Positions 4,495-52,222 of a stretch of DNA of 64,000 nt are shown one piece after another. The position numbers and the translations under genes were made by a program. Source of the DNA: Pseudomonadota bacterium (lineage in GTDB: Bacteria; Pseudomonadota; Gammaproteobacteria; Burkholderiales; Rhodocyclaceae). The stretch spans positions 1 to 64,000 of the forward strand of contig JAFEFC010000006.1 of the NCBI GenBank assembly GCA_018240785.1, given 5' to 3'. Every line of letters begins with the position of its first letter. The stretch's first letter is position 1. The notes under the pieces were generated by a model. It saw nothing but the letters and a program-made list of their open reading frames with translations. It made no database searches and was not told the DNA's origin.

Positions 4495-4510
4495 TCGTCC
4501 GATCGGACGA
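4495..4510. promoter_or_regulatory. 16-bp palindromic operator, site 1 (F420 operon)
   Basis: TCGTCCGATCGGACGA is a perfect 16-base palindrome, 90 bases before the npdG start codon. Close versions occur at seven other places in this window, all in promoter regions of the catabolic cluster. It is probably bound by a dimeric repressor or activator. The regulator is not identified. Confidence 0.7.
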
Positions 4511-4599
4511 TGCCCATTTGCCATCGACTCTCGTAGCGTGGGCAGTGCAAGGCATGTCCGCGACGCCGGGCATTGCGCTCACTCCATGGAGACATTCGG

Positions 4600-5280
4600 A
4601 TGGTCATCGACAACACAAGAACAATCGGCGTCATCGGCGGGACCGGCAAGCTGGGGGCGGCGCTCGCGCGGCGCTGGGCGAAGGCGGGGTTGCGGGTGGC
4701 GATCGGCTCGCGCGACGCCGACAAAGCCCGCGAAGCGGCCGCTGCGCTGGCGGCGGAGACCGGGGCCGCGGTCGATTCGGGATGCAATGCCGACGTCGCC
4801 GCCCGCGCCGACCTGATCGTGGTCAGCGTGCCCTTCGGGTCGCAGGTCGCGACGCTGGAGGAGATCCGCGCGGCGGCGGCCGGCAAGCTGGTGGTGGATA
4901 CCACGGTGCCGCTGATGCCGCCCAAGGTGATGCGCGTGCAACTGCCTCCCGAGGGCTGCGCCGCGCTGCGCGCGCAGCAGACGCTGGGCGCGGCGGTGCG
5001 CGTGGTGTCGGCCTTCCATAACGTGGCGGCGCACAAGCTGGCGACCGACGAGGACATCGCCTGCGACGTGCTGGTGTTCGGCGACGACAAGGCCGACCGC
5101 GCCCAGGTCGTGGCGCTGGCCGATTCCGCCCGCCTGCGCGGCCTGCACGGCGGCGCCCTGGCGAACTCGGCCGCTGCCGAGGCGATGACCTCGGTGCTGA
5201 TCTTCCTCAACAAGACCTATCGTGTCGACGGCGCCGGCCTGTGCATCACCGGCGAGCTCGACATGAACGCTGACGCCTGA
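4600..5280 (+). CDS. npdG: F420:NADPH oxidoreductase (NADPH-dependent F420 reductase)
   Basis: Catalyses hydride transfer between NADPH and coenzyme F420, supplying reduced F420 to F420-dependent enzymes in the cytoplasm. The 226-residue length fits the family. The N-terminus has the Rossmann loop IGVIGGTGKLG, then IGSRDADKA, whose Ser/Arg fits binding of the NADP 2'-phosphate. The C-terminal part (AFHNVAAHKL, VFGDDKADRAQV) is typical of Fno/NpdG. I chose ATG 4600 because it has GGAG nine bases upstream and starts right before the Rossmann strand; an earlier TTG at 4573 lacks support. It is the first gene of the F420 operon, 10 bases before cofE, and sits behind the palindromic operator at 4495. 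Confidence 0.9.
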   Translation: MVIDNTRTIGVIGGTGKLGAALARRWAKAGLRVAIGSRDADKAREAAAALAAETGAAVDSGCNADVAARADLIVVSVPFGSQVATLEEIRAAAAGKLVVDTTVPLMPPKVMRVQLPPEGCAALRAQQTLGAAVRVVSAFHNVAAHKLATDEDIACDVLVFGDDKADRAQVVALADSARLRGLHGGALANSAAAEAMTSVLIFLNKTYRVDGAGLCITGELDMNADA

Positions 5281-5290
5281 GGAGACGGCC

Positions 5291-6058
5291 ATGGGACGCC
5301 GGCTGTGTTTCGAAGCGCTTGCCGGCATCCCGGAGATCCGGCCCGGTGACGCGCTGGCGCCGTTGATCGTCGCGGCGCTGGCGGCGAACGAATGTGCGCT
5401 CGGCAGCGACAGCATCGTCGTGGTGGCGCAGAAGATCGTGTCGAAGTCGGAAGGCCGCTTCGCCTGGCTCGATGAAGTCACCCCTTCCGACAAGGCGCAG
5501 GAGCTCGCCCGCATCACCGGCAAGGATGCGCGCCTGGTGGAGCTGACGCTGTCCGAATCGACCCGGGTGCTGCGCGCGGTGCCGGGCGTGCTGATCGTGC
5601 GTCACCGCCTGGGCTATGTGATGGCCAACGCCGGCATCGACATGTCCAATGTGCCGGGCGAAGCTGGCCGCGAACGGGCGCTGCTGCTGCCGCTGGACCC
5701 GGACGCCTCGGCCGCGGCGCTGCGCGAGGCCTTGCGCGTGGCCACCGGGCACGCGGTGGGCGTGATCGTCAGCGACAGCTTCGGCCGCCCGTGGCGCAAC
5801 GGCGTGGTGAACGTGGCCCTCGGTTCGGCCGGCATTCCGGCGCTGATCGACCGCCGCGGCGACATCGACCGCCACGGTCGCACGCTGCAGATCACCCAGA
5901 CTGCCTTTGCCGATGCGGTGGCTGCCGGCGCCGCGGTGGTGATGGGCGAAGGCGACGAAGGCATGCCGGTGGTGGTCGCCAGCGGCTTCATGCCGGCCGC
6001 TCCGGAGACGGATTGCCGGGCGCTGGTGCGCCCGATCGACACGGACCTGTTCCAATGA
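5291..6058 (+). CDS. cofE: Coenzyme F420-0:L-glutamate ligase
   Basis: Adds L-glutamate residues to F420-0 with GTP, the last step of F420 synthesis. The 255-residue protein carries the family hallmarks QKIVSKSEGR near residue 50, HRLGYVMANAGIDMSNV near 110 and SDSFGRPWRNG near 160. It is the single-domain form: the nitroreductase-like FMN domain found at the C-terminus of actinobacterial FbiB is absent. The start has a GGAG nearby (GAGGAGACGGCC) and the stop overlaps the cofD start in ATGA, so the two are coupled. The missing reductase domain matters for the pathway variant, because dehydro-F420-0 made from phosphoenolpyruvate would need a separate reductase. Confidence 0.95.
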   Translation: MGRRLCFEALAGIPEIRPGDALAPLIVAALAANECALGSDSIVVVAQKIVSKSEGRFAWLDEVTPSDKAQELARITGKDARLVELTLSESTRVLRAVPGVLIVRHRLGYVMANAGIDMSNVPGEAGRERALLLPLDPDASAAALREALRVATGHAVGVIVSDSFGRPWRNGVVNVALGSAGIPALIDRRGDIDRHGRTLQITQTAFADAVAAGAAVVMGEGDEGMPVVVASGFMPAAPETDCRALVRPIDTDLFQ

Positions 6059-7005
6059 GCGCGCACAACATCCTTGCCCTGAGCGGCGGCGTCGGTGGCG
6101 CCAAGCTCGCCGACGGACTGCTTCACACCACGGGCCGCGGGCGGCTCACCGTGGTGGTCAATACCGGCGACGACTTCACCCACCTGGGCCTGCACATCTC
6201 GCCCGACATCGACACCGCGCTGTACACGCTGGCCGACCTCGCCAACCCCGAGACCGGCTGGGGCCGGCGCGGCGAGACCTGGACCTTCATGGATGCGCTC
6301 GCCCGCCTCGGCGGCGAGACCTGGTTCCGCCTCGGCGACGGCGACCTCGCCACCCATGTCGAGCGCACCCGCCGGCTCGCGGCCGGCGAACCGTTGTCGG
6401 CCATCGTCGCCGACTTCGGACGGCGCTTCGGCATCGACGCCGACATCGTGCCGATGTCCGACCAGCCGCTGCGCACCCGCGTGCGGACGGACGACGGCGT
6501 GTTCGACTTCCAGGACTATTTCGTCCGCCAGCAATGCCGCCCGGTGACGCGCGCGATCGAGTTCGTCTTCGCGCCGGACACGCGCCCCTGCGCCGCAGTG
6601 GAACGGGCGCTCGCCGACGAGGCGCTGAGCGCCATCGTGATCTGCCCGTCCAACCCCTACCTGAGCATCGCCCCCATCCTGGCGGTGCCCGGGCTGCGCG
6701 CGCTGCTGCGCGGGCGCGGCGTGCCCATCGTCGCGGTGTCGCCGCTGGTCGGCGGCGCCGCGGTGAAGGGGCCGACGGCGAAGATCATGACCGAGCTGGG
6801 CGTGCCGGTCAGCGCGGACGAGATCGTCCGCCACTACGGCGACCTGCTCGACGGCTTCGTGCTGGATGCCCGCGACGCCCACCTGCGCGACCGCATCGCG
6901 CTGCCGGTGCATGTGACCGACACGCTGATGCTGACGCCGGCCGACCGCATCCGCGTCGCGCAGGAAACGCTGGCCTTCGCCGCCACCCTTCCCCGCAAGA
7001 TCTGA
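6055..7005 (+). CDS. cofD: 2-phospho-L-lactate transferase (F420-0 synthase step)
   Basis: Transfers the phospholactyl-type moiety from its guanosine diphosphate-linked precursor to the deazaflavin FO, giving F420-0 (or a related form). The protein begins NILALSGGVGGAKLADGL, the family's N-terminal nucleotide-binding loop, and has the conserved NTGDDFTHLGLHISPDIDT. Length 316 residues is normal. The ATG at 6055 overlaps the cofE stop. An upstream in-frame extension inside cofE is possible on paper but has no support, since the conserved loop starts six residues after this ATG. It ends the npdG-cofE-cofD unit; a 302-base gap follows before cofC. Confidence 0.95.
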   Translation: MSAHNILALSGGVGGAKLADGLLHTTGRGRLTVVVNTGDDFTHLGLHISPDIDTALYTLADLANPETGWGRRGETWTFMDALARLGGETWFRLGDGDLATHVERTRRLAAGEPLSAIVADFGRRFGIDADIVPMSDQPLRTRVRTDDGVFDFQDYFVRQQCRPVTRAIEFVFAPDTRPCAAVERALADEALSAIVICPSNPYLSIAPILAVPGLRALLRGRGVPIVAVSPLVGGAAVKGPTAKIMTELGVPVSADEIVRHYGDLLDGFVLDARDAHLRDRIALPVHVTDTLMLTPADRIRVAQETLAFAATLPRKI

Positions 7006-7044
7006 TCCGCCGCATGCCGCGCCATTGGCGCGGTCGCACGCGGC

Positions 7045-7070
7045 AAAAACCGAGCTTTTTCAGCTTTAGC
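7045..7070. promoter_or_regulatory. Shared motif copy 1, upstream of cofC
   Basis: The sequence AAAAACCGAGCTTT followed by TTCAG, TTTA and GC recurs almost unchanged at 14089-14115 ahead of the tetR/sulfotransferase operon. The copies differ only by two single-base gaps and one C/T change. It is AT-rich in a GC-rich setting and lies in the gap before cofC-cofGH, which fits a promoter or regulator site. Which regulator binds is unknown; the TetR protein of 14258 is the obvious candidate. Confidence 0.5.
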
Positions 7071-7212
7071 CGGAAAGCATTCGGGTGACGCCTTCACCGC
7101 CTTGTTTTGGTTAGGTTTTTTCCACCCTGTCAACAAGAGTCGACCCGATCAAAGCGAGTAGCCGACGTCGTATCTGAGGTGTTTCAATTTTGCCAAGGAC
7201 AGCACCCAGACC

Positions 7213-7311
7213 ATGCAGACACGACACCTCGAACCTCTCGCAGCCCACGACGCCACACCCGCCTCGCAGCGCGTGATGGCCGCGGCCGGATCGCCGGGAG
7301 CACGGCCATGA
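7213..7311 (+). CDS. Possible 32-residue leader peptide overlapping cofC
   Basis: ATG at 7213 opens a 32-codon frame (begins MQTRHLEPLAAHD) whose TGA overlaps the cofC ATG in ATGA, the same junction used elsewhere in this locus. An AAGGA lies 13 bases upstream, farther than ideal. The overlap suggests translational coupling to cofC. It could also be chance in GC-rich DNA. No family is recognised. Confidence 0.3.
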   Translation: MQTRHLEPLAAHDATPASQRVMAAAGSPGARP

Positions 7312-7940
7312 GCTGCTGGGCCGTGGTTCCGCTCAAGGCGCGCCGCACGGGCAAGACGCGGCTCGCCGGCCTGCTCGACGAAGCCGCCCGCGCCACGCTG
7401 GTGCAGTCGATGCTCGAGACCGTGCTGTCGGCCCTGTTCGAGGCGCATGAGATCGATCGCGTCGCGGTGGTCAGCAGCGAGCCGGAAAGGGTCCCTCACG
7501 GCGTGCTGGCCCTGCCGGACCCGGGCCAGGGGCTCAACCCCGCACTGACCGCCGCCGCGGACATGCTGCTCGACCACGGTGCGCGTTCGCTGCTGGTCAT
7601 CCACGCCGACCTGCCGCTGGTGCGGGGGAGCGACATCGACCAGTTCGTGCGCGCCGGCCGCCACCAGGGCATGGCGCTGGCGACAGACCGTCACGGTACC
7701 GGCACCAATGCGCTGTTCGTCGCCGACCGACTGGACTTCCCCTTCCGGTTCGGCACCAACAGCCTGTCGCGCCATCTGGCCGAAGCCCGCCTGCGCCACA
7801 TCACGCCCGCCCTGCCGGCGCTCAATGGCCTCGCCATCGACATTGACACGCCTGCCGACCTCGCCTGCCTGTGGCCGGCGGCCGCAGCCCCCTTCACGCC
7901 CACCCGCTGGAGTCCGACGCCATGCACGACCTCACTCTGA
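7308..7940 (+). CDS. cofC: Phospholactate (or phosphoenolpyruvate/3-phosphoglycerate) guanylyltransferase
   Basis: Activates a three-carbon phosphoacid with GTP to give the precursor used by CofD. The 210-residue protein begins MSCWAVVPLKARRTGKTRLA, the nucleotidyltransferase loop of the MobA-like/CofC fold. It continues with VVSSEP, LLVIHADLPLV (the metal-binding Asp) and DRHGTGTNALF. ATG 7308 has GGGAG about six bases upstream, and the glycosyltransferase-like first strand begins right after it. The substrate cannot be read with confidence: the family uses 2-phospholactate in archaea, phosphoenolpyruvate in actinobacteria and 3-phosphoglycerate in some betaproteobacteria. It overlaps the start of cofGH by 19 bases. 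Confidence 0.93.
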   Translation: MSCWAVVPLKARRTGKTRLAGLLDEAARATLVQSMLETVLSALFEAHEIDRVAVVSSEPERVPHGVLALPDPGQGLNPALTAAADMLLDHGARSLLVIHADLPLVRGSDIDQFVRAGRHQGMALATDRHGTGTNALFVADRLDFPFRFGTNSLSRHLAEARLRHITPALPALNGLAIDIDTPADLACLWPAAAAPFTPTRWSPTPCTTSL

Positions 7941-10342
7941 GCCTTCTCCACCGCGCACAGGCAGGACACACGCTGTCGGCCGAGGACATCCACCTGCTGG
8001 CCGAGCACGCGCCGCACGCCGAGCTGCTGCAGGCCGCCGAGGCCCTGACCCTGGCCGGGCACGGGGCGAACGTGGGCTATTCGCCCAAGGTCTTCATCCC
8101 GCTCACCCGGCTGTGCCGCAACACCTGCGGCTACTGCACCTTCGCCACCACGCCGAAGTCGGTGCCGAGCGCCTACCTGAGCGCCGACGAAGTGCTGGCC
8201 ATCGCCCGCGCCGGCGCGGCGGCAGGCTGCCACGAGGCCTTGTTCACCCTCGGCGAGCGCCCGGAGTCGCGCTACCAGGCGGCACGCGACGCCCTCGCCA
8301 CGCTCGGCCACGGCTCGACCATCAAGTACCTGGCGGAGATGGCCGCGCTGGTGCATCGCGAGACCGGGCTGCTGCCGCATGTGAATCCCGGCACCATGAG
8401 CGCCGAAGAGATCGCCCTGCTGCGCCCGCTGTCGGCCTCGATGGGCATCATGCTGGAGTCGTCCTCCACCCGCCTGTGCGAACGCGGCGGCCCGCACTGG
8501 AAGTGCGTGGACAAGCATCCCGACGTCCGCCTCGAGACCCTGCGCCTGGCCGGCGAGCAGGCAGTGCCGATGACCACCGGCATCCTGATCGGCATCGGCG
8601 AGACGCGCCGCGAACGCGTCGATTCCCTGCTCGCCCTGCGCGACCTGCACGCGGCGCATGGCCACCTGCAGGAGATCATCGTGCAGAACTTCCGCGCCAA
8701 GCCCGGCACGGTGATGGCGCTGGCGGACGAGCCCGGCCTGGACGACCACACCTGGACGATCGCGATGGCGCGCCTGATCTTCGGCGCCCGCATGTCGATC
8801 CAGGCGCCGCCCAACCTGCGGCCGGGCGAGCTCGGCCCGCTGCTGCGCGCCGGCGTCAACGACTGGGGCGGCATCTCGCCGGTGACGCTCGACCATGTGA
8901 ACCCGGAAGCGGCCTGGCCGCAGATCGACGCGCTCGCCGCCGAGACGGCCGCGCACGGCCGCCATCTGCGCCCGCGGCTGCCGCTGATCCCGTCCTTCGT
9001 GGGCGAGGCTGCGCGGTGGACGGAGCCTGGAATGGGCACCGCCCTGCTGCGCCGTGCGGACGCCAGCGGCTTCGCCCGTGCCGACGACTGGCTCGCTGGC
9101 ACCGGCCAGGCCCCCTCGCCCGCGGCGCTGCGCGCCTTCGCGCCGCAAGCGGACGGCGCCGCGCCGTCGCCGGCCGTCCGCGCGCTGCTCGACAAGGCCC
9201 TGGCGGGCCGCGAGCTGGCCGAGGACGAGATCGTGCGCCTGTTCGACGCCCAGGGCGCCGACCTGCACGCGGTGATGCAGGCCGCCGACCGGCTGCGGCG
9301 CGACACCGTGGGCGATGCGGTCACCCACGTGCGCAACTGCAACATCAACTACACCAACATCTGCCAGCACCGCTGCGGCTTCTGCGCCTTCGCCAAGAGC
9401 CATGCCGCGTCCACGCTGCGCGGCCCGGCCTACCGCCTCGAAGCCGAGCAGGTTGCCGCCCGCGCGCTCGAGGCCTGGGCGCGCGGCGCCACCGAGGTGT
9501 GCATGCAGGGCGGCATCCACCCGCACTACACCGGCGACACCTACCTCGAGCTGCTGGCGGCGGTGAAGCGCGCGACGCCCGACATGCACATCCACGCCTT
9601 CTCGCCGCTGGAGATCCGCCACGGCGCCGCCACCCTGGGCCTGTCGCTGCGCGACTACCTGCGCCGCCTGCGCGACGCCGGCCTGCGCACGCTGCCGGGC
9701 ACGGCGGCGGAGATCCTCGACGACGAGGTGCGCGCGATCATCTGCCCGGACAAGCTCGACACCGCGCAATGGCTCGAGGTGATGGAGGCCGCGCACGAGG
9801 TCGGCATCCGCAGCACCGCGACCATCATGTTCGGCCATGTGGATGCGCCGCGGCACTGGGCGCGCCACCTGCTGGCCATCCGCCGCCTGCAGGCGAAAAC
9901 CGGCGGCTTCACCGAGTTCGTGCCGCTGCCCTTCGTGCATATGGAATCGCCGCTGTGGCACAAGGGCCGCGCGCGCTCCGGCCCGACGCTGCGCGAATCG
10001 GTGCTGATGCACGCGGTCGCCCGCCTGGTGCTGCATCCGCTGATCGCGAACATCCAGACCTCGTGGGTCAAGATGGGCGCCGAAGGCGCAGCGCTCTGCC
10101 TGCAGGCCGGGGCCAACGACCTCGGCGGCACGCTGATGTACGAATCGATCACCCGCGCGGCGGGCGGCGCCAACGGCCAGTTGATGGAGACCGCCGACCT
10201 GCGCGCGATCGCGGCGCGCTGCGCACGTCCGCTGCGCCAGCGCACCACGCTCTACGAGGCGGTGCCGCCTGCAGCCGATGGGGCCGCCGTCGAACCACCC
10301 CATCGCGCGCAGCAGGTGCACAGGCTGCACGCGACCGCCTGA
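7922..10342 (+). CDS. cofGH: FO synthase, fused CofG-CofH radical SAM protein
   Basis: Makes the deazaflavin FO from tyrosine and the flavin precursor 5-amino-6-ribitylamino-uracil. It is an 806-residue fusion of two radical SAM domains. The CofG half has CRNTCGYC (Cys65, Cys69, Cys72); the CofH half has CQHRCGFC (Cys481, Cys485, Cys488). Both bind a 4Fe-4S cluster. The CofG-first order is that of actinobacterial FbiC; archaea use separate proteins. Start ATG 7922 has GGAG nine bases upstream inside the cofC end; an in-frame GTG at 7871 is less likely. Fusion and gene order suggest acquisition from an FbiC-type source. With npdG, cofC, cofD and cofE, this completes a recognisable F420 pathway in one place. 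Confidence 0.95.
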   Translation: MHDLTLSLLHRAQAGHTLSAEDIHLLAEHAPHAELLQAAEALTLAGHGANVGYSPKVFIPLTRLCRNTCGYCTFATTPKSVPSAYLSADEVLAIARAGAAAGCHEALFTLGERPESRYQAARDALATLGHGSTIKYLAEMAALVHRETGLLPHVNPGTMSAEEIALLRPLSASMGIMLESSSTRLCERGGPHWKCVDKHPDVRLETLRLAGEQAVPMTTGILIGIGETRRERVDSLLALRDLHAAHGHLQEIIVQNFRAKPGTVMALADEPGLDDHTWTIAMARLIFGARMSIQAPPNLRPGELGPLLRAGVNDWGGISPVTLDHVNPEAAWPQIDALAAETAAHGRHLRPRLPLIPSFVGEAARWTEPGMGTALLRRADASGFARADDWLAGTGQAPSPAALRAFAPQADGAAPSPAVRALLDKALAGRELAEDEIVRLFDAQGADLHAVMQAADRLRRDTVGDAVTHVRNCNINYTNICQHRCGFCAFAKSHAASTLRGPAYRLEAEQVAARALEAWARGATEVCMQGGIHPHYTGDTYLELLAAVKRATPDMHIHAFSPLEIRHGAATLGLSLRDYLRRLRDAGLRTLPGTAAEILDDEVRAIICPDKLDTAQWLEVMEAAHEVGIRSTATIMFGHVDAPRHWARHLLAIRRLQAKTGGFTEFVPLPFVHMESPLWHKGRARSGPTLRESVLMHAVARLVLHPLIANIQTSWVKMGAEGAALCLQAGANDLGGTLMYESITRAAGGANGQLMETADLRAIAARCARPLRQRTTLYEAVPPAADGAAVEPPHRAQQVHRLHATA

Positions 10343-18460: not shown

Positions 18461-19489
18461 ATGTTCGAGATCTTCGCTTCCACCCCTGAAAACCTGAACC
18501 TGGCCGACATGGGCGCCTTTGCCCGCCGCGTCGAAGCCATGGGCTACGACGGCCTGTTCGTGTCCGACGCGATCCACGACGGCCTGCTGCTCGCCTGCCA
18601 GGCGCTGTCGGCGACCTCTAAACTCAAGGTCGGCACCTCGGTGCTGATCGTCTTCCCGCGCAGCCCGATGAACGTCGCGCTGGCGAGCTGGGACCTGCAG
18701 AAGATGTCGGGCGGCCGCTTCGAGCTCGGCATGGGCACGCAGATCAAGCAGAACATCGAGGATCGCTACTCGGCGCGCTGGCTGCCGCCGGCCGCCGGCA
18801 TGCGCGAGTACGTCGGCGCGCTGCGCGCCATCTTCCACGCCTTCCGCACCGGCGAACGGCTGGAGTACATCGGCGAGCACTACAAGTTCACCCGCCTGCA
18901 GCCCTTCTTCAACCCGGGCCCGATCGATGCCCCGGACGTGCCGCTGATGCTGGGCGCGGTCGGCCCCAAGATGCTGGAGCTGGTCGGCAAGACCGCGGAC
19001 GGCATCCACACCCATCCGACCAACACCTCGGTGCGCTACCTGAAGGAAGTGATCCTGCCGCAGATCGCCGTCGGCACCGCACAGCGCGACCCCGGGCGCG
19101 CCAAACCCTTCATCAGCGCCAGCCAGTTCGTCGCCACCGGACCGGACGACGCCACCGTCGCCGCCGAACGCGAGCGCTTCCGCGACATGCTCGCCTTCCT
19201 GTTCTCGACCCCCGCCTATTGGGCGAGCCTGGAACTGTTCGGCTGGCAGCACGTCGGCGAACAACTGCTCGCGCTCACCCGCGAGGGGCGCTGGAAGGAC
19301 ATGCCGGGCGTGTTCACCGACGAAGTGCTCGACACCTTCCTGGTCTCGGGACGCTACGACGAACTGCCCGAACGCCTGGGCTCGCGCTTCGGCGGCCTGG
19401 TCGACCGGATCACGCTGACGGTGCCGACCGACCCGGCCAACGATGCGGCGGTGGCGGAAGCGATCAGGCAGATCCGCGCCTATCGCTGA
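18461..19489 (+). CDS. F420-dependent LLM-class oxidoreductase
   Basis: A 342-residue luciferase-like monooxygenase-fold protein of the kind that uses reduced F420 (it resembles the TIGR03617 group). The N-terminal strand-helix FASTPENLNLADMGAFARRV, the GTSVLIVFPRSPMNVA stretch near residue 50 and FELGMGTQIKQNIEDRY near 85 fit the family's TIM barrel. F420H2 would come from the pathway encoded at 4600-10342, so this is the likely local consumer of the cofactor. The reaction is unknown. It closes the operon started by tetR. Flavin use instead of F420 cannot be excluded from the sequence alone. Confidence 0.82.
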   Translation: MFEIFASTPENLNLADMGAFARRVEAMGYDGLFVSDAIHDGLLLACQALSATSKLKVGTSVLIVFPRSPMNVALASWDLQKMSGGRFELGMGTQIKQNIEDRYSARWLPPAAGMREYVGALRAIFHAFRTGERLEYIGEHYKFTRLQPFFNPGPIDAPDVPLMLGAVGPKMLELVGKTADGIHTHPTNTSVRYLKEVILPQIAVGTAQRDPGRAKPFISASQFVATGPDDATVAAERERFRDMLAFLFSTPAYWASLELFGWQHVGEQLLALTREGRWKDMPGVFTDEVLDTFLVSGRYDELPERLGSRFGGLVDRITLTVPTDPANDAAVAEAIRQIRAYR

Positions 19490-33746: not shown

Positions 33747-33891
33747 GTTCGTCTCCTGCGATTGTGTGAGGCGCCGACCCGATGCCGTCGCGCCTGCTGG
33801 ACCCTGCTGCAAGCGGAGCGATCATCCTTGGGATTGATCGTCCTTTCGCAGCGCTTGCAGCGAGTCTAAGAGCAGGACCGTCCGCAGCACT

Positions 33892-33907
33892 TCGTCTGAA
33901 CGGACGA
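33892..33907. promoter_or_regulatory. 16-bp palindromic operator, site 2
   Basis: TCGTCTGAACGGACGA, differing from the perfect palindrome at two central bases. It lies 146 bases from the ChsH2-like start and 164 from the MFS start, in their shared divergent promoter region. Identical to the site at 41546. Confidence 0.65.
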
Positions 33908-33971: not shown

Positions 33972-33987
33972 TAGTCCCATCGGACGA
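33972..33987. promoter_or_regulatory. 16-bp palindromic operator, site 3
   Basis: TAGTCCCATCGGACGA, 80 bases from site 2 and 84 before the MFS start. The right half is fully conserved. The paired arrangement suggests one site per divergent promoter. The rest of 33747-34070 shows no gene. Confidence 0.6.
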
Positions 33988-34070
33988 TGTGCCCCCACCC
34001 CTCGGGAACGACCATCCGCCCGACAGAAAAGGCGGCGCGCATCCGCATGCGCTGCAGACGGAGACAGCAA

Positions 34071-40683: not shown

Positions 40684-41487
40684 TCAGTGCTGCTCGCCGC
40701 TATTGGCCGCAGCGAGGAAGGCCGGCCGCTCGCCGCCGCCATGCAGCAGCAGGTTGGTGCCGGCGAAGTAGGCCGCCATCGGCGAGCCGGCATACAGGCA
40801 GGCGTTGGCGATGTCGTCCGGCGTGGCCATGCGGCCGGCGGGGATGGTGGCGCCGACGGCGGCAATGCCGGCCTCGTCGCCATAGTGCAGGTGGGCCTGC
40901 TCGGTCTGCACCAGCCCCGGGCTGATCGCGAGCACGCGCACCCTGGGCGCCCACTCCACCGCGAGCGAGGACGCCAGCGACAGCACGCCGGCCTTGGCCG
41001 CGCCATAGGCGGCGGTGCCCGGCGAGGGGCGCGAGGCGGCGACGCTGCCCACGAAGATGATCACGCCGCCTTCGGCCTGCTCCTGCATCAGCGCATTGGC
41101 CTGCTGGGCGACGTTGAGAGGGGCGATCAGGTTGAGGCGGATGATGCCTTCGTGGAAGCGCGGCGAGGCCTTGTCGGCGAGCGCGAAGGGCGCGCCGCCG
41201 GCGTTGTTGACCAGCACGTCGAGGCGGCCGAAGCGCTCGCGGATGGCCGCGAACAGGGCCTGCAGCGACTCGATGTCGCGCACGTCGGCGGGGATGAAGT
41301 CGGCCGCTCTGCCGCCGGCCTCGGGCAGCACTTCGGGCGCGTTGCGGCCGCAGACGACCACCGTCGCGCCCGCGGCGAGGAAGCCGCGCGCGATGCCGGC
41401 GCCGATACCCTTGGTGCCGCCGGTCACGAGCACGACCTTGCCGCGGTAATCGAGCGCCGCGGCGCCCGTCGAAGCCTGATTGTTCAT
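40684..41487 (-). CDS. Short-chain dehydrogenase/reductase
   Basis: A 267-residue classical SDR: VTGGTKGIGAGIA cofactor loop, NNAGG, Ser in IFVGSVAAS and YGAAK active-site pair. I use ATG 41487, which has GGAG six bases upstream; a GTG 12 bases earlier is the other option. Divergent from the enoyl-CoA hydratase gene, with a palindromic operator between them, so it belongs to the same regulon as the F420 genes. Confidence 0.88.
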   Translation of the reverse strand: MNNQASTGAAALDYRGKVVLVTGGTKGIGAGIARGFLAAGATVVVCGRNAPEVLPEAGGRAADFIPADVRDIESLQALFAAIRERFGRLDVLVNNAGGAPFALADKASPRFHEGIIRLNLIAPLNVAQQANALMQEQAEGGVIIFVGSVAASRPSPGTAAYGAAKAGVLSLASSLAVEWAPRVRVLAISPGLVQTEQAHLHYGDEAGIAAVGATIPAGRMATPDDIANACLYAGSPMAAYFAGTNLLLHGGGERPAFLAAANSGEQH

Positions 41488-41545
41488 GCACTGCTCCACG
41501 ATGTTCGGATGCCTGCGAGTCTAGGGGCGCCACCGGCGCCATTCT

Positions 41546-41561
41546 TCGTCTGAACGGACGA
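41546..41561. promoter_or_regulatory. 16-bp palindromic operator, site 4
   Basis: TCGTCTGAACGGACGA, identical over 16 bases to site 2 at 33892, in the promoter gap between the SDR (41487, minus) and the enoyl-CoA hydratase (41661, plus). Confidence 0.68.
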
Positions 41562-41660
41562 TGAGCGGCTTGCGTGTACGACCGAACATGCATCCCATCC
41601 CCTTCCCCGGTTGCCGCGCCCGCACGGGCCGTCGCACGCCGGGGCGTTCCTGGAGGCTCC

Positions 41661-42464
41661 ATGACCACAGACCCGACATCGCCGTCCGCAATCGCTTCGC
41701 CCCTGCTGCTCGAACGCCTCGATGGCGGCGTCGCGCTGCTGCGCCTGAACCGCCCGCAGGCCACCAACGCCCTGTCGCTCGAGCTGCAGGCCCTGCTGTC
41801 GCAGCGCTTCACCGAACTGGCGGCCGACGACACGGTGCGCTGCATCGTGCTCACCGGCGGCGAGAAGGTGTTCGCGGCCGGTGGCGACATCACCAGCATG
41901 GCCGGCGTCGGCCCGATCGAGATCACCCAGCGCCACACCGAGCGCGTGTGGGGCCCGATCCAGCACTGCCCCAAGCCGGTGATCGCCGCGGTATGCGGCT
42001 ACGCCTACGGCGGCGGCTGCGAGCTGGCGATGCTGGCCGACATCATCGTCGCCGGCGAGGGCGCGCGCTTCTGCCAGCCGGAGATCCGTATCGGCATCAT
42101 GCCCGGCATCGGCGGCACCCAGCGCCTGGTGCGCGCGGTGGGCAAGGTCAAGGCGATGCGCATGGCGCTCACCGGCAAGCCGATCACCGCGCACGAGGCG
42201 TGGACCGCCGGCCTGGTGAGCGACCTGGTGCCCGACGACCAGGTGATCCCGACCGCGATCGAACTGGCGCGCACCGTTGCCGCGATGCCGCCGCTCGCCG
42301 CCGAGCAGATCAAGGAATGCATCCTGCTGGGCATGGATGCCCCGCTCGAGACCGCGCTGGCGATGGAGCGCCGCGCAAACGCCCTCCTCTTCGCCTCGCG
42401 CGACCAGAAGGAAGGCATGCAGGCCTTCATCGAGAAGAGGCCGCCGCAGTTCGAGGGGCGCTGA
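41661..42464 (+). CDS. Enoyl-CoA hydratase/isomerase family protein
   Basis: A 267-residue crotonase. The oxyanion-hole region is AAGGDI near residue 72 and GYAYGGGCELAMLAD near residue 115. The acidic residues of the hydratase site show as CQPEIRIG (Glu) near 143. The ATG has GGAGG four bases upstream. It is followed after 109 bases by an SDR on the same strand, which would suit hydration followed by oxidation of a 3-hydroxyacyl-CoA. Confidence 0.9.
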   Translation: MTTDPTSPSAIASPLLLERLDGGVALLRLNRPQATNALSLELQALLSQRFTELAADDTVRCIVLTGGEKVFAAGGDITSMAGVGPIEITQRHTERVWGPIQHCPKPVIAAVCGYAYGGGCELAMLADIIVAGEGARFCQPEIRIGIMPGIGGTQRLVRAVGKVKAMRMALTGKPITAHEAWTAGLVSDLVPDDQVIPTAIELARTVAAMPPLAAEQIKECILLGMDAPLETALAMERRANALLFASRDQKEGMQAFIEKRPPQFEGR

Positions 42465-47134: not shown

Positions 47135-48856
47135 TCAGCCGCGATCGCTTGTGTGCTGGGCGATGTGGTGGGCGGCGATGTAACCGAAGGTCATCGCCGG
47201 CCCGATGGTGGCGCCCGCGCCCGGATAACCGGTCCCCATGACCGAGGCCGAGGTGTTGCCGATGGCGTACAGCCCCTCGATGGGCGAACCGTCGGGACGA
47301 ACGACACGGCCGTGAACATCGGTCAGCAGGCCGCCCTTGGTGCCGATGTCTCCCGCATCCATCCGGATCGCATAGAAGGGCCCTTTGGCGATGGGCGCCA
47401 GGCAGGGGTTGGGCTTGACATTGACGTCGCCGTAGTAGCGGTCGAACACGTTGCCGCCGCGACCGAAATCCTCGTCCTTGCCGCTGCGCGAGTACTCGTT
47501 CACCTTCGCCACGGTCTGGGCAAGGCCTGCCGGTTCGACGCCGATCTGGCGCGCCAGATCGTCGAGCGTGTCCGCCTTCCAGTACATGGACCCCAGCCAC
47601 TCCTTGCGCAGGCGGCCATCGGGCATGATCTGGCCCGGCATCAGCGGCCCCATCGCGTAGTTGAAGCGGAAGTGGGCGTCGAAGATGCACCAGGCGGGCA
47701 CGTTGTTGCCGCCGGTGGCTTCCCGGTCCTTGTACATCGCGGCACCGAACTCGAGATAGCCCTGCGCCTCGTTGCAGAAACGCCGTCCCAGGCTGTTGAC
47801 CACGATCGCCCCAGGGAAGGCGCGCTCGGCGAACACCCCGCGCGGCTTCTCCTCACCCGGCACCGGAATCGTCGGCGCCCACCACGCCCACTCGAGCAGG
47901 TCGGTCGCCGCGCCGGCAGCCATGCCGGCTTCGAGCGGCGCGCCGGTGTTGTTGCCGGGAGGCGTCGCGCTCCACGCCGTCTTCGTCGGCTGCGGCAGGT
48001 ATTTCTCGCGCAGCGCCTGGTTCTGCTCGAAACCGCCGGCCCCCAGGATCACGCCGCGCCGCGCGCTCAGCGTCATCGGGCGACCCTCGCGCACGACCTT
48101 GATGCCGGTCACGCGGCCATTGTCGAGCACCAGTTCGCGGAAATCCGTCTTCAGCCACAGCGGCACCTTGCGATCGAGCAGCGAGGCGCGCAATGCGCAC
48201 ACCAGCGAACTGCCCAGGCCGGCGCGGCGGTCGTGCTTCGTGCGTTTGCGCCACTTGAAATCGAGCTTGTAGCGCAGCATCAGTCCCAGGATCTTGAAGC
48301 GCCAGCCGGTTTCGCGCGCCATGGCAACGTGGGCGTCGCGCGCCGTCCAGGCGATACGCCCCATCAGCAGCGTCGACGCCGAGGGGCGGCGCAGGTTGTC
48401 CAGTTCATCGCCGAGCACGCTGGTGTCGAACAGCTCGGGGTCGAGCGAACGCCCCCCGGGCAATGCGCCGGGCAGGTGCTGGTAGTAGTCGGGGTACTTC
48501 TCGGCCACCGCGTAGCGCACCCGGGATTTCTCCTCCAGGTACTTGATCATTTTCGGCGCGTGGTCGAGGTAGGCGCGCACCTTGGCTTCATCCGCCCGGC
48601 CACCGGACGCACTCAGGATGTACTGCAGCGCCTTGTCGTAGCCGTCCTTGCCACCCTTCGCGACGAAGTAATGATTGCAGGGAATCCAGATGCCGCCGCC
48701 GGAAATCGCCGTCGTGCCACCGAACTTGTCGCTCTTCTCGACGACGAGCACCGAAAGCCCCTGGTCGGCGGCAATGACAGCCGACGTCATCGCACCTCCA
48801 CCCGAGCCGACGACGATGACGTCCCATTCCGTCTGAGTCTGGTTCTGCAAGCTCAC
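47135..48856 (-). CDS. FAD-dependent 3-ketosteroid dehydrogenase-like flavoprotein (KstD family)
   Basis: About 573 residues. The N-terminus has the FAD loop DVIVVGSGGGAMTSAVIAA, and the C-terminus carries SASVMGTGYPGAGATIGPAM, where the Tyr and Gly match the catalytic Tyr/Gly pair of KstD enzymes that put a double bond next to a ring ketone. The start is uncertain: GTG 48856 gives the usual short lead to the FAD loop; GTG 48886 adds 10 residues. It is first in its operon and divergent from another FAD flavoprotein, with two weaker operator copies between them. Confidence 0.82.
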   Translation of the reverse strand: MSLQNQTQTEWDVIVVGSGGGAMTSAVIAADQGLSVLVVEKSDKFGGTTAISGGGIWIPCNHYFVAKGGKDGYDKALQYILSASGGRADEAKVRAYLDHAPKMIKYLEEKSRVRYAVAEKYPDYYQHLPGALPGGRSLDPELFDTSVLGDELDNLRRPSASTLLMGRIAWTARDAHVAMARETGWRFKILGLMLRYKLDFKWRKRTKHDRRAGLGSSLVCALRASLLDRKVPLWLKTDFRELVLDNGRVTGIKVVREGRPMTLSARRGVILGAGGFEQNQALREKYLPQPTKTAWSATPPGNNTGAPLEAGMAAGAATDLLEWAWWAPTIPVPGEEKPRGVFAERAFPGAIVVNSLGRRFCNEAQGYLEFGAAMYKDREATGGNNVPAWCIFDAHFRFNYAMGPLMPGQIMPDGRLRKEWLGSMYWKADTLDDLARQIGVEPAGLAQTVAKVNEYSRSGKDEDFGRGGNVFDRYYGDVNVKPNPCLAPIAKGPFYAIRMDAGDIGTKGGLLTDVHGRVVRPDGSPIEGLYAIGNTSASVMGTGYPGAGATIGPAMTFGYIAAHHIAQHTSDRG

Positions 48857-48917
48857 GACCCACCCCTGATTGCTGTTTCGATGCACGGGATATTCGCTTC
48901 AGCAATCCGCCGCTTCA

Positions 48918-48933
48918 TCGTCAATGCGGACTA
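48918..48933. promoter_or_regulatory. 16-bp operator-like site 5 (degenerate)
   Basis: TCGTCAATGCGGACTA. In the reverse direction it reads TAGTCCGCATTGACGA, matching 12 of 16 positions of the consensus including both outer half-sites. It lies in the gap between the two flavoprotein genes. Confidence 0.45.
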
Positions 48934-48977
48934 GAGACGCCCTGCGGCGCGGCCGCGCCCGCAGCCTGCGGGCGACA

Positions 48978-48993
48978 TCGTTCAATCGAAGGA
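48978..48993. promoter_or_regulatory. 16-bp operator-like site 6 (degenerate)
   Basis: TCGTTCAATCGAAGGA matches the consensus at 12 of 16 positions and is flanked by CA and TG as at several other sites. It starts 60 bases from site 5 and 74 before the plus-strand flavoprotein start. Confidence 0.4.
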
Positions 48994-49051
48994 TGTGCGG
49001 GATGCCGGCGGTGACCAACATCGCGCGGAACTGCAACCAACGGAGCCAGGC

Positions 49052-50533
49052 ATGACGCAGACACAGAACAGGACCCCCTCCCCCGCCCGCCCCTGCCGAC
49101 TTGCGGACGTGCCACGATGGGACATCGACACCGATGTGGCGGTGATCGGTTTTGGCGCGGCCGGAAGCTGCGCCGCGATCGAAGCGCGTGCGGCCGGCGC
49201 CGGCGTGCATGTGTTCGAGGTTGCCGCAGCACCCGGCGGCAGCGCCTCGTGGTCGGGCGGCGAAGTCTATGTCGGCGGCAGCGGCGGCACCCGCGTGCAG
49301 CGGGCACATGGCTTCGAGGACAGCACCGAGGACCTTTACACCTACCTGATGATGGCCGGCGGCCCCGGTGCGGACGCCGAGCGCGTGCGCATCTATGCCG
49401 AGGGCGCAGCGGGTCATTTCGACTGGCTGGAAGCGCAGGGCGTACCGTTCAAGGGCACCTACCTGCCGGGCAAGTGGATCGAGCCCACGACCGACGACAC
49501 CCTGCTGTGGTCGGGGAGCGAGGCGGCATGGCCATTCAGCGCCAGGGCGAAACCCGCGCCGCGCGGCCACACCGCCCAGTTCAAGGGCTGGGGCGGCGGC
49601 AAGATCCTGATGGAGAAGCTGTGCGCGCGCGCCGAAGCGGTCGGCGCCGTCGTGCATTGCAACAGCCGGGCCCTGAGCCTGATCGTCGATGATGATCGCA
49701 GCGTGGTCGGCGTCGTCGTGCGTATCGAGGGCAAGGAACAGCATGTCCGCGCACGCAAGGGCGTGATCCTGTGCGCCGGCGGATTCATCGTCAATCGCGA
49801 GATGGTCGCGCGCTTCGCTCCGGCCGCGCTGGCCTGCAGCGAGGTGGTGTCGGGCGGCAACGACGACGGCTCGGGCATCCGCATGGGCATGAGCGTCGGC
49901 GGCGCCACCATCCACATGGACCAGTTCTTCGCCACCATTCCCTTCTTCCCGCCTGCGTCGCTGGTCAAGGGCATCTTCGTCAATGCGCGCGGCGAGCGCT
50001 TCATCAATGAGGATGCCTACCACGGCCGCGTCGGCCACTACGTGCTGCGCCAGCCCGAGGGCAAGGCCTGGCTGCTGGTGGACAACGAGATCTTCGGCCG
50101 GCCGGTGATCGAGCCCGACATCCGGGTGGCGGCGGTGGGCGAAACCTGGGAGGAAGTCGAACAGGAACTGGCCCTGCCGGCGGGCACCCTGGTGCACACG
50201 GTGGAGGAATTCAACCGCAACGCTGCGGCCGGACAGGACCCGCTGTTCCACAAGGCCGCGGACTGGCTGCGCCCGCTCACCGAGCCGCCGTTCGCAGCGC
50301 TGAGCTACTGCGCCGGCGACCTGAAGGCCCACGCCTTCACCATGGGCGGCCTGCACACCCGGCCCGGCGGCGAGGTGCTCGACGCCGATGGCGCACCGAT
50401 CACCGGCCTGTACGCCGCCGGTCGCAGCGCCTGCGGCCTGCCGCGCTGGGGCGAAGGCTACAGCTCGGGCATGTCGCTGGGCGACTCGACTTTCTTCGGC
50501 CGCCAGGCCGGTCGCGCCGCGGCCGCGCGCTGA
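49052..50533 (+). CDS. FAD-dependent oxidoreductase, KstD/fumarate reductase-like
   Basis: A 493-residue flavoprotein with VAVIGFGAAGSCAAIEAR (FAD loop), GGSASWSGGEVYVGG and a C-terminal YAAGRSACGLPRWGEGYSSG. The C-terminal Gly-rich region differs from the typical KstD GYPGAGATIG, so a fumarate-reductase-like or other ring desaturase/reductase activity is possible. ATG 49052 has GGAG seven bases upstream. It is divergent from the 48856 gene and ends at a strong terminator. Confidence 0.82.
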   Translation: MTQTQNRTPSPARPCRLADVPRWDIDTDVAVIGFGAAGSCAAIEARAAGAGVHVFEVAAAPGGSASWSGGEVYVGGSGGTRVQRAHGFEDSTEDLYTYLMMAGGPGADAERVRIYAEGAAGHFDWLEAQGVPFKGTYLPGKWIEPTTDDTLLWSGSEAAWPFSARAKPAPRGHTAQFKGWGGGKILMEKLCARAEAVGAVVHCNSRALSLIVDDDRSVVGVVVRIEGKEQHVRARKGVILCAGGFIVNREMVARFAPAALACSEVVSGGNDDGSGIRMGMSVGGATIHMDQFFATIPFFPPASLVKGIFVNARGERFINEDAYHGRVGHYVLRQPEGKAWLLVDNEIFGRPVIEPDIRVAAVGETWEEVEQELALPAGTLVHTVEEFNRNAAAGQDPLFHKAADWLRPLTEPPFAALSYCAGDLKAHAFTMGGLHTRPGGEVLDADGAPITGLYAAGRSACGLPRWGEGYSSGMSLGDSTFFGRQAGRAAAAR

Positions 50534-50551
50534 CGCGCGGCCGACGAAACG

Positions 50552-50587
50552 AAGCCGCGTCGCCCGAGAGGCCGACGCGGCTTTTTT
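50552..50587 (+). terminator. Rho-independent terminator
   Basis: AAGCCGCGTCG and CGACGCGGCTT form an 11-bp perfect stem with a ten-base loop, followed on the plus strand by a run of T (six in a row from 50582). It ends the transcript of the flavoprotein gene and is the clearest intrinsic terminator in the window. Confidence 0.85.
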
Positions 50588-50629
50588 CATTCCGGCGCGG
50601 GCCGCGGCATGCCGCGGCCCCGGGGAGCA

Positions 50630-52066
50630 TCAGGGCGTGACCTGCGCCTCCATCATCGCCAGGAACTGCTCCGAGTAGGGCGGCAGCAGGCCCCATTCGC
50701 GCCGCGGATCATAGGCCGGCGCCTTGAACACGGTACGTGCGTGGCTGAACTCGAGGAAACCCTCGCGGCCATGGTAATGGCCCATGCCGGAAGCGCCGAC
50801 GCCGCCGAACGGGGCGTCTTCCATCGCCGCATGGAACATCGCCTCGTTGATGCAGACGCCGCCCGACAGGGTGTGTTCGAGCACGCGCTGCTGCTCGCCG
50901 GCGTCCTCGCCGAAGTAGTAGAGCGCCAGCGGACGCGGGCGGCTGTTGATGTCGGCGATCACTTCGTCGATCGTGTCGTAGGGCTTGACCACTACCGCCG
51001 GACCGAAGATCTCCTCGTGCATGATCTTCGCGGTGGAGGGCGGATCGATGACGATGGAGAGCGGTCGGCGGCGTTCGGCCGTGTCGGCCGCCAGCGGCGC
51101 TGGCGCGCATTCGACGCGGGCGCCGGCCTGTGCGGCGTCGCTGACATATGACTCGACGCGCGCGAGATGGCGCGGATTGACCACCGCGACCATGTCCGGG
51201 TTGCCCGGCACGCTCGGGAACAACTCGCCGAAGGTGCGCTTGAGCGCCGCCACGAAATCCTCGAGCTGCTCGCGCGCCACATAGACGACGTCTGGATTCA
51301 CGCACAACTGGCCGGCATTGCTCGCCTTGGCGACACCGATGCGGAACGCCGCTGTCGCGAGGTCGGCGCTACGGGCGACGATGGTGGGCGACTTCCCGCC
51401 CAGTTCCAGCGTCACCGGCACCAGGTTATCCGCCGCGTTGCGCATGACCGCCTTGCCGACCTGAGTACTGCCGGTGAACACGATGTGGTCGAACGGCTGG
51501 GAAGTGAATGCCTCGCCCATGTCGGGGCCGCCGGTGACCACGCCCGCCTCGAGCGGGTCGAACATGTCGACCACCGCCTCGGCCACCACCTGGGCCGTGC
51601 GCGGGACCACCTCGGAGGGTTTGACGATGGCGCGATTCCCCGCTGCGAGCGCGCTGGCCAGCGGGCTGAACAGCGTGAACAGCGGCGCATTCCAGGTGCC
51701 GATGATGCCGACCGAGCCCTTGGGCTGGTACATCACCCACGCCTGTGCGCCGAGCTGGTCATAGGGCGGGAACGGCGCACGCGGCTCGCTTGCCATCCAG
51801 GGTTCGAAATGGTCGCGCGCGTACTTGAGCGAGGTGAGCGAGCCGATGACGTCGTTCATCAGCGAGTAGCCTCGCGGGCGTCCGCCAAAGTCGGCGTCCA
51901 TCGCCTCGACCAGCGGCTTGTGGTATTTCACAAGCAGATCCACCGCCGTCTGGATGCGCCTGCGGCGATCGGCCACGCCGACCGCGCCGGCACGATCGAA
52001 CGCCTGCTTCTGTTGCTGGAGCAGGCCGGCAAGGCCTGCCACAGTGCTGATGATCTGTTTCGTCAC
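50630..52066 (-). CDS. Aldehyde dehydrogenase (coniferyl-aldehyde dehydrogenase-like)
   Basis: A 478-residue NAD(P)-dependent aldehyde dehydrogenase. The catalytic Cys is Cys255 in NAGQLCVNPDVV, the general base Glu is Glu221 in LELGGKSP, and TWNAPLF near 125 matches the cofactor region. The C-terminal FGGVGASGMGHYHGREGF is typical of the coniferyl/long-chain class. It starts at GTG 52066, with GGAG eight bases upstream; the longer open frame upstream has no site. Divergent from the flavin reductase, with two operators in between. An aldehyde from side-chain aldol cleavage would be a fitting substrate, but this is a guess. Confidence 0.88.
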   Translation of the reverse strand: MTKQIISTVAGLAGLLQQQKQAFDRAGAVGVADRRRRIQTAVDLLVKYHKPLVEAMDADFGGRPRGYSLMNDVIGSLTSLKYARDHFEPWMASEPRAPFPPYDQLGAQAWVMYQPKGSVGIIGTWNAPLFTLFSPLASALAAGNRAIVKPSEVVPRTAQVVAEAVVDMFDPLEAGVVTGGPDMGEAFTSQPFDHIVFTGSTQVGKAVMRNAADNLVPVTLELGGKSPTIVARSADLATAAFRIGVAKASNAGQLCVNPDVVYVAREQLEDFVAALKRTFGELFPSVPGNPDMVAVVNPRHLARVESYVSDAAQAGARVECAPAPLAADTAERRRPLSIVIDPPSTAKIMHEEIFGPAVVVKPYDTIDEVIADINSRPRPLALYYFGEDAGEQQRVLEHTLSGGVCINEAMFHAAMEDAPFGGVGASGMGHYHGREGFLEFSHARTVFKAPAYDPRREWGLLPPYSEQFLAMMEAQVTP

Positions 52067-52150
52067 GACAATCGCTCCGGTCAGGAAAATGGGTGGGCAG
52101 TGCGCCTCGGCGCCTCGGGCGCAACTTAACCCGTGGCTGCCGAAACCGCG

Positions 52151-52166
52151 TAGTCCGATCGGACGA
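52151..52166. promoter_or_regulatory. 16-bp palindromic operator, site 7
   Basis: TAGTCCGATCGGACGA, one base from the perfect palindrome. It lies 85 bases from the aldehyde dehydrogenase start. Confidence 0.66.
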
Positions 52167-52206
52167 TCGCCGACCGGCCGCCACATGACCATGGCGCCCG
52201 CACCGG

Positions 52207-52222
52207 TAGTCCGTTGGGACGA
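52207..52222. promoter_or_regulatory. 16-bp palindromic operator, site 8
   Basis: TAGTCCGTTGGGACGA, starting 56 bases from site 7 and 64 bases before the flavin reductase start. Confidence 0.6.

Follow-up and report, generated by a model that had tools for sequence, protein, structure and literature searches.

LuxR-type activators of steroid degradation, TeiR/TesR, are known from Comamonas testosteroni, and TeiR-like genes are mentioned for Pseudomonas stutzeri Chol1 in the accessible parts of three papers (PMC8399759, PMC6895838, PMC6678751), one of which repeats a report that tesR-like genes occur only in C. testosteroni (PMC6895838). In actinobacteria, steroid degradation is governed by TetR repressors, according to the accessible text of PMC6678751 and PMC8399759. 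PMC6678751 mentions cofactor F420 once. F420 operons of Proteobacteria, in which a fused fbiC accompanies the customary F420 synthesis genes, are described in the accessible part of PMC8498797, whose main text never uses the words steroid, cholesterol, Thauera or regulon. Here we analyze a 64,000-nucleotide stretch of a Rhodocyclaceae draft genome (the window) in which a 16-bp palindrome, the box, precedes both a complete F420 synthesis operon and a set of catabolic genes. Genomes are labeled G, contigs C and loci L; the source genome (4.7-Mb draft) is G000, the window is G000:C55:1-64000, and C18 is a second contig of the same genome.

The palindrome is probably the operator of a LuxR-type, TeiR/TesR-like activator, whose steroid regulon would include F420 synthesis in some lineages. 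The computed results behind this reading are the site itself, its confinement, its fixed promoter spacing, its conservation, a held-out match at npdG promoters and the co-occurrence of regulator and site. The original prediction, made from the window alone, had proposed one regulator for F420 synthesis together with a steroid- or terpenoid-like degradation pathway. Its single regulator finds good computational support in the confinement, the conservation, the held-out test and the co-occurrence; of its two pathway types, the steroid one (9,10-seco-type) looks the more fitting. The regulon also extends to C18, which encodes the regulator candidate. Like TeiR/TesR, the candidate is a LuxR-type helix-turn-helix (HTH) regulator in a steroid cluster, activation being proposed here and reported there in the accessible literature. 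The present case differs in its defined operator, promoter geometry and reach into F420 synthesis, the likeness being one of description rather than of compared sequences. As in the KstR/KstR2 regulons of actinobacteria, one regulator would serve many dispersed steroid genes, but KstR and KstR2 are TetR repressors with homologues absent from bile acid-degrading Proteobacteria, as far as the accessible text of PMC8399759 goes. EdcR of Caenibius tardaugens shares a palindromic operator in a proteobacterial steroid cluster, but is a TetR repressor whose operator, TnnCnnTACnAnTnGTAnnGnnA, is unlike the box (PMC8700777, in part). The F420 operon differs from those in the accessible part of PMC8498797 by its putative steroid-pathway promoter. 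LuxR-type steroid activators are thus already known; what appears new is that a regulon of this type, here with its operator and promoter defined, has come to include F420 synthesis.

Six strong and two weak copies of the box had been pointed out in the window, and all their coordinates hold. The six strong palindromes, described as differing by at most four changes, match TCGTCCGATCGGACGA with 0-3 mismatches (0 at 4495, 2 at 33892, 2 at 33972, 2 at 41546, 1 at 52151 and 3 at 52207), where 0.85 matches are expected in the window and the shuffle maximum is 4 (n = 100). The weak copies at 48918 and 48978 carry 5 and 4 changes, and mismatch count alone would not single out either. The letters of 48918 are identical at the matching place in three relatives, G139 (1866472), G193 (2600853) and G180 (105279). 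A counterpart of 48978 was seen only in G139 (1866520; 1 base different) and none in G193 or G180. A composite box-plus-(-10) model scores these two at 29.5 and 19.9, both having belonged to its training set. A position matrix that contains the window's sites gives 6 matches above 16 bits in the window against 0.07 expected. All eight copies lie between genes, in agreement with their proposed place in promoter gaps. The only further intergenic matrix match above 9 bits, at 2585, falls within a run of atypical open reading frames (ORFs) missed by the gene finder; this agrees with the claim that the cysD, LysR, AraC and other gaps hold no copy.

Each copy is followed by a predicted -10 element. 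The box of the F420 operon, TCGTCCGATCGGACGA (4495..4510, plus strand), has one variable column among 8 aligned npdG upstream regions, and its predicted -10, TAGCGT (4534..4539, plus strand; spacer 23), is invariant in 8/8 of them. The remaining boxes are given without strand. The box at 33892..33907 faces leftward to an operon with ChsH2-like, acyl-CoA dehydrogenase and thiolase genes (-10 TAGACT, 33863-33868, minus strand, spacer 23), and that at 33972..33987 rightward to a transporter gene of the major facilitator superfamily (MFS) (-10 GACCAT, 34010-34015). A single box at 41546..41561 could serve both directions, with TAGACT at 41518-41523 (minus) and GAACAT at 41584-41589 (plus), spacer 22 each. 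The weak box at 48918..48933 faces leftward to a run of KstD-like, short-chain dehydrogenase/reductase (SDR), ligase and old yellow enzyme (OYE) genes (-10 GAATAT, 48890-48895, minus), and the other, at 48978..48993, rightward to a second FAD-dependent gene (-10 CAACAT, 49016-49021). Finally, the box at 52151..52166 faces leftward to an aldehyde dehydrogenase gene (-10 TAAGTT, 52123-52128, minus) and that at 52207..52222 rightward to flavin reductase and SDR genes (-10 CATACT, 52245-52250).

We aligned 41 sites toward the probable target gene: 19 from G000, 5 from G044, 11 from a Vibrio plasmid and 6 from G422. The extended box consensus is T(A/C)GTCY...RGACGATG. An A at position 2 and a T at position 6 of the -10 are found at a spacer of 22 bases in 31 of the 41 oriented sites, while the same pair averages 1.6 at the other 64 spacings, with 6 (at spacer 23) the highest count; the overlap between the spacer-22 (31/41) and spacer-23 (6/41) sites was not counted. 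The preference for spacer 22 recurs in each site set (7/9, 8/10, 3/5, 8/11 and 5/6). By reading, the npdG promoter fits spacer 23, with a predicted transcription start near 4546. A point that weakens this geometry is that the direction of each site was set from the nearer or only fitting gene, one opposite orientation being left out. The fixed 22-base spacing places the box center at -42.5, where lux-type class II activators bind. The box position therefore looks like a LuxR-type class II activator site, with 31 of 41 sites at spacer 22 and starts that are predicted. Class II promoters of this type also have a dyad box at -42.5 instead of a -35 element and a weak -10; the candidate here carries GerE as its sole domain above the Pfam cut-off.

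Close matches to the motif are not spread evenly over the genome, and the site is kept at orthologous promoters in relatives. The degenerate pattern TMGTCYVWWBRGACKA, written from G000 sites and searched with 0 mismatches, has 12 exact matches in G000, 12/12 on C18 and C55. In G193, 12 of 13 exact matches lie between 2463736 and 2604147. C18 contains eight more sites above 14 bits, at 1928, 8272, 10773, 27546, 76011, 82682, 86147 and 86217. A 44-base box-plus-promoter profile was searched against the whole of G000, 150 of 3199 first-look candidates being scored. Its top 22 matches, which represent 18 distinct sites including 17 used in training, are all on C18 and C55, C18:55212 alone lying outside the training set. 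Match number 23 lies elsewhere on C55 inside a called gene, and matches on other contigs all have E values of at least 0.43.

Several results temper this picture of confinement. The 12/12 and profile results involve some circularity, as both the pattern and the model derive from these very sites. The plain palindrome with up to 3 mismatches matches G000 40 times, against 66 for the reversed control, and a looser pattern gives 17 matches against 17 in G139, 16 against 25 in G180 and 10 against 11 (forward) in G044. Among eight genomes, the looser pattern clearly exceeds the reversed control only in G193, G192 and G065. With one mismatch allowed, forward matches outnumber reversed ones by 19 to 8 in G000 and by 17 to 11 in G193. 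That loose patterns do not exceed reversed controls, and that many contigs of G065 carry scattered copies of a similar palindrome, TAGTCCGAACGGACTA, would be expected if the box were a repeat element or a chance feature of GC-rich intergenic DNA. We regard this as extremely improbable, as it is contradicted by close matches confined to two clusters, by the fixed -10 spacing, and by conservation at orthologous promoters and on a Vibrio plasmid of 43% GC. The related palindrome, TAGTCCGAACGGACTA / TAGTCCGATCGGACTA, occurs in G065 and G112 (L066, L067); among five loci translated, one each in G112 and G065 adjoins a protein with a PEP-CTERM-like end, and the palindrome may perhaps belong to another regulon with a related operator. 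G065 was set aside as evidence: its palindrome lies beside a PEP-CTERM-like gene at 1/3 translated loci, and the regulator is unmatched in that genome at E 1e-60.

Our leading candidate for the regulator is a 379-residue LuxR-type protein, TeiR/TesR-like by description, encoded at C18:2965-4104 on the minus strand. It carries the C-terminal GerE helix-turn-helix of LuxR-type proteins (PF00196, 28.2 bits, cut-off 23.5). Its gene lies downstream of two electron transfer flavoprotein (ETF) genes of the steroid cluster, with KshA and acyl-CoA genes on the same contig. A LuxR-type gene inside a steroid cluster, as for TeiR/TesR, is thus present in G000, and the same was found on the Vibrio plasmid. 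The HTH is the only highly conserved part of the protein, 15 of 20 residues at 341-360 being invariant in 12 homologues. We searched 199 genomes of the family at E 1e-60, defining a close orthologue as 74% or more. The regulator is matched in 13 of them, and six, G000, G139, G193, G180, G044 and G192, have close orthologues. Forward pattern matches in these six number 11, 11, 12, 10, 6 and 10, and reversed-control matches 2, 3, 4, 6, 4 and 2, respectively. At least six forward matches are found in 6/6 orthologue genomes versus 2/193 others (G065 and G172; Fisher p = 3.5e-10). The same-genus genomes G048, G103 and G169 have neither a regulator match nor a forward motif match (reverse 0, 0 and 2). 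Around regulator homologues, 12 of 26 loci have a composite site above 13, and the loci of all six orthologues are among these 12.

The link between protein and site is loosened by other observations. The threshold of at least six matches was set once the counts were known, the pattern came from G000, and in some genomes (G011 and G078, 8 each) the reversed control attains it too. G065 (23 forward matches) and G172 (6) have no close regulator orthologue, 14 of the 26 loci have no composite site above 13, and among distant homologues (37-46%) in genomes without a close orthologue a site is found only at L224, L226 and L234. In addition, a 40% paralogue on G000 C14 could share the site. Binding by such a paralogous LuxR-type regulator, or by several together, would accord with second or third homologues of 39-58% in G000, G139, G193, G044 and G192, with the 58% paralogue of G139 adjoining its own box, and with a 41% homologue divergent from the second npdG of Thauera butanivorans. 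Only the C18 gene, however, has close orthologues in all six box-rich genomes, and G180 has a single match at E 1e-60 yet many boxes, which makes a paralogue a distinctly improbable binder.

An operator for a TetR-family repressor of the KstR/KstR2 kind would equally be an even palindrome, as the box is, and C18 and C55 carry three TetR genes. One of these, C18_14, was our first favorite and has orthologues of at least 80% in G139, G193 and G180; it was dropped, as it has no match at E 1e-10 in the box-rich G044 and G192. Neither of the remaining two TetR genes near the clusters is matched in the fetched G044 and G192 regions, and no TetR protein is common to all six box-rich genomes among the 30 of 96 TetR matches compared. 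A constant -10 position and a box centered at -42.5 suit an activator, and the candidate carries GerE in place of the TetR_N domain of KstR/KstR2. Together these make a TetR repressor very unlikely, and the C18 LuxR-type protein remains our preferred candidate. An AraC-type gene beside a site in G192 and G044 was also discarded, having no close relative in the fetched G000 regions.

Distant replicons carry regulator and box together. On the Vibrio alfacsensis plasmid NZ_CP140104.1, a 53.5% regulator homologue directly follows an ETF beta gene and a FAD-binding ETF-alpha-like gene, the same ETF-ETF-regulator order as on C18. A matrix built from G000 only gives 11 matches above 13 bits on this plasmid, 10 of them intergenic, where 2.1 are expected and 60 simulations reach at most 7; above 16 bits there are 9, against 0.38 expected. 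These nine are all intergenic and lie beside steroid-type genes, including the ETF-regulator run. Four of 243 plasmid records with a regulator homologue were read, the weaker ones (30-38%) being left out, and no Comamonas record is among the 20 listed of these 243. The Vibrio plasmid measures 174 kb at 43% GC and carries many steroid-degradation-type genes as well as an XrtA/PEP-CTERM polysaccharide island.

In a class-wide survey, 2 of 369 genomes, G000 and G422, match the regulator at E 1e-80. G422 (49% homologue) has 6 matrix matches above 13 in an 80-kb steroid region versus 1 in 160 kb elsewhere, and 2 in a second region with a 44% homologue. Its composite matches above 20 number 8 in the steroid region and 0 in the second, the G422 sites having been in training. 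The loci of Burkholderia arboris, Caballeronia SBC2 and Cupriavidus necator were kept out of training; they have homologues of 42-46% and give 3, 6 and 2 composite matches above 20, with 0.0 expected.

The F420 operon of the window spans 4600-10342 and is complete, each gene scoring above an NCBIfam cut-off. All genes lie on the plus strand: npdG, for the NADPH-dependent F420 reductase (4600..5280; TIGR01915, PF03807), cofE, for the F420-0:glutamate ligase (5291..6058; PF01996, TIGR01916), cofD (6055..7005; PF01933, TIGR01819), cofC (7308..7940; PF01983, TIGR03552) and fbiC, a CofGH fusion for FO synthase (7922..10342; NF006687). NpdG is 95% identical to that of Thauera sp. 2A1 and 94% to that of Thauera sp. 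28, its closest named relatives, which suggests that the source organism is a Thauera or a near relative of that genus. When 8 npdG upstream regions, one of them the window's, are aligned, the longest conserved blocks are the box plus the bases after it and the -10 TAGCGT, and the rest mostly varies.

For a held-out test, the composite model was trained on 39 sites with no npdG promoter among them and applied to the best 80 of 218 named npdG loci. Of these 80, 11 score at least 13.1: Thauera sp. 2A1, Thauera sp. 28, T. butanivorans, Azoarcus Aa7 (both loci), Aromatoleum toluolicum, A. anaerobium, A. diolicum, A. toluclasticum, Pseudomonas saliphila and P. sagittaria. Eight of the 11 exceed the null maximum of 13.45. 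By lineage, 9 of 12 Thauera/Azoarcus/Aromatoleum loci score and L131, L136 and L149 do not, L136 and L149 holding less than 100 bases 5' of npdG; 2 of the 68 other loci score. Judging from these held-out scores, F420 synthesis is very probably a regulon member in the scoring Thauera/Azoarcus/Aromatoleum and the two Pseudomonas species. In P. saliphila, npdG lies ~5 kb from a 76% HsaC homologue with its own box. In Aromatoleum/Azoarcus (L106, L110, L118, L126), npdG is divergent from genes for an acyl-CoA dehydrogenase and an F420-dependent luciferase-like monooxygenase (LLM) oxidoreductase, with a shared box; the LLM oxidoreductase of G192 scores above the TIGR03619 cut-off.

The F420 link has its own counterevidence. 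The null consisted of 710 segments from random places, not promoter gaps, and 3 of the 11 npdG loci score only 13.1, at about the 99.9th percentile of it. The -10 of the shared box in G044 and G192 faces the acyl-CoA dehydrogenase/LLM side, and npdG in Aromatoleum/Azoarcus loci of this type has only a degenerate second box. The second npdG locus of T. butanivorans, L131, is without a box (1.8 bits, composite 7.6). In the window, no site above 9 bits lies near the F420-dependent LLM oxidoreductase gene (18461..19489, plus strand; above the TIGR03617 cut-off), a candidate F420 user. The npdG of G044 looks frame-broken (C1:1687464-1688280), and no cofE was found in that genome at E 1e-10; its F420 genes may be decaying, with the steroid regulon retained. 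The regulon of G180 is present without any cofE match at E 1e-10, and the F420 link is therefore lineage-specific, added in some lineages and not required.

This last genome, which keeps the regulon without a cofE match, also suits the view that the npdG site was inherited from its neighborhood and that F420 synthesis has no functional tie to steroid degradation, as does the distance of ~100-130 kb between F420 genes and regulator in G139 and G193. In both of these complete genomes, npdG shares its chromosome with the regulator gene, at a distance of ~129 and ~103 kb, respectively. Mere inheritance nevertheless seems unlikely to us. The npdG box and -10 are conserved within an otherwise largely variable upstream region, the same layout reappears at separate npdG operons, those of P. 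saliphila and P. sagittaria among them, and in Aromatoleum/Azoarcus npdG is divergent from acyl-CoA dehydrogenase and F420-LLM genes over the shared box.

Further F420 loci were observed. At L131:1403-3781, the second npdG-cofC-fbiC set of T. butanivorans is divergent from the 41% regulator homologue and has a box-like sequence of variant form. G193 also carries a second, partial F420 set (G193:C1:2610367-2614311, L210), npdG-, cofC- and fbiC-like by eye, with a weak box, TAATCCAATCAGGCGA, and TAAAGT 22 bases later (counted by eye). The cofE loci L041, L042 and L043 (G048, G114 and G116) have no composite site above 9, the position of npdG there not having been checked; G114 carries a 41% homologue of the regulator. 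Several Sphingobium npdG loci (L122, L124, L137, L144, L148 and L150) have KstD-like and LLM-like matches within 10 kb of npdG, without a box, hinting at a wider F420-steroid or F420-terpenoid link.

The catabolic genes facing the boxes begin with a ChsH2-like/MaoC-type fusion (32757..33728, minus; PF01796, PF12172, PF13452), first of a leftward run that continues with acyl-CoA dehydrogenase, thiolase-like and SDR genes, and the MFS transporter gene (34107..35651, plus; PF07690). An SDR oxidoreductase (40684..41487, minus; PF13561) and an enoyl-CoA hydratase (41661..42464, plus; PF00378) flank the two-way box. The KstD-like FAD dehydrogenase (47135..48790, minus) has 3-oxosteroid 1-dehydrogenase as its best NCBIfam match, at 561 bits and below the cut-off of 788, and the FAD-binding protein of the PRK07121 group (49136..50533, plus) scores above the NF005510 cut-off. 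The aldehyde dehydrogenase (50630..52066, minus; PF00171) is followed by a flavin reductase (52286..53263, plus; PF01613) that resembles HsaB and the reductases of 4-hydroxyphenylacetate (HPA) hydroxylase, below the NCBIfam cut-offs. C18 encodes KshA (PF19298; KshA_C 195.2 bits, cut-off 23.3), an HsaC-like dioxygenase, a CoA-transferase, DUF1329, BNR and MMPL proteins, ETF subunits and a SnoaL-type protein. KshA, KstD and HsaC-type enzymes, which mark the 9,10-seco route, are thus all represented, the KstD-like and HsaC-like best matches lying below NCBIfam cut-offs. The gene set resembles that of a 9,10-seco-type steroid pathway more than that of a terpenoid one. Azoarcus Aa7, which carries the same kind of npdG promoter, degrades bile acids according to the accessible text of PMC8399759.

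Two observations concern smaller genes. After a strong box on C18 lies an ORF of ~66 codons (C18:82268-82682, minus strand; L020:2268-2682) with an MFTK/MITK start and a hydrophobic N-terminus; the arrangement is found in G000, G139, G193 and G180, and the ORF may encode a small steroid-regulon protein that has escaped annotation. Just 5' of the F420 operon, at window:659-4211, a tight run of four atypical ORFs matches PADLOC Hp1, Hp2 and Hp3 (E 6.5e-65, 2.4e-40 and 7.1e-20) and then, weakly, an AbiJ-like family (E 0.0013), with no Pfam or NCBIfam match at E 0.001. It is possibly a defense island.

From these comparisons we infer binding by the C18 protein, activation, a steroid-derived signal, operon membership and F420 use in the pathway. 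The LuxR-type protein encoded on C18 would bind as a dimer to T(A/C)GTCY-NNNN-RGACGATG, centered ~42.5 bases before the transcription start, where the box would stand in for a -35 element. The -10 to which the bound regulator would recruit RNA polymerase is weak (xAxxxT) and starts 22 bases past the box, less commonly 23, and one box could serve two divergent promoters. The putative regulon would comprise transport, ring degradation (KstD-like, KshA, HsaC-like), side-chain and C/D-ring type genes, and the regulator itself via the ETF operon. In Thauera, Azoarcus, Aromatoleum and the two Pseudomonas species, npdG and the F420 genes would be included, such that the cofactor is made during steroid degradation.

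Neither an operator for TeiR/TesR nor an F420-steroid regulon turned up in searches of the openly licensed literature, as far as its accessible text goes. If orthology holds, the statement that tesR-like genes occur only in C. testosteroni would need qualifying. In the accessible parts of two 2021 reviews, why new producers such as Proteobacteria make F420 is named as unanswered (PMC8498797), and regulation in bile acid-degrading Proteobacteria as still largely unknown (PMC8399759). Both questions become partly testable with a named candidate regulator, a DNA site defined to the base, predicted starts and a list of candidate target promoters in named bacteria, to which two F420-dependent enzyme families are added as candidates. 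The box-plus-(-10) model can be used to seek further regulon members in other genomes. The box at the F420 genes suggests a concrete reason for F420 production in such bacteria: some beta- and gammaproteobacteria may make F420 specifically for steroid degradation, under a steroid-responsive LuxR-type master activator whose operator and promoter layout is shared across Proteobacteria, and with F420-dependent LLM oxidoreductases, one of them in a promoter pair with npdG in Aromatoleum and Azoarcus, performing an unassigned step, a tentative proposal to which we give slightly less than an even chance.

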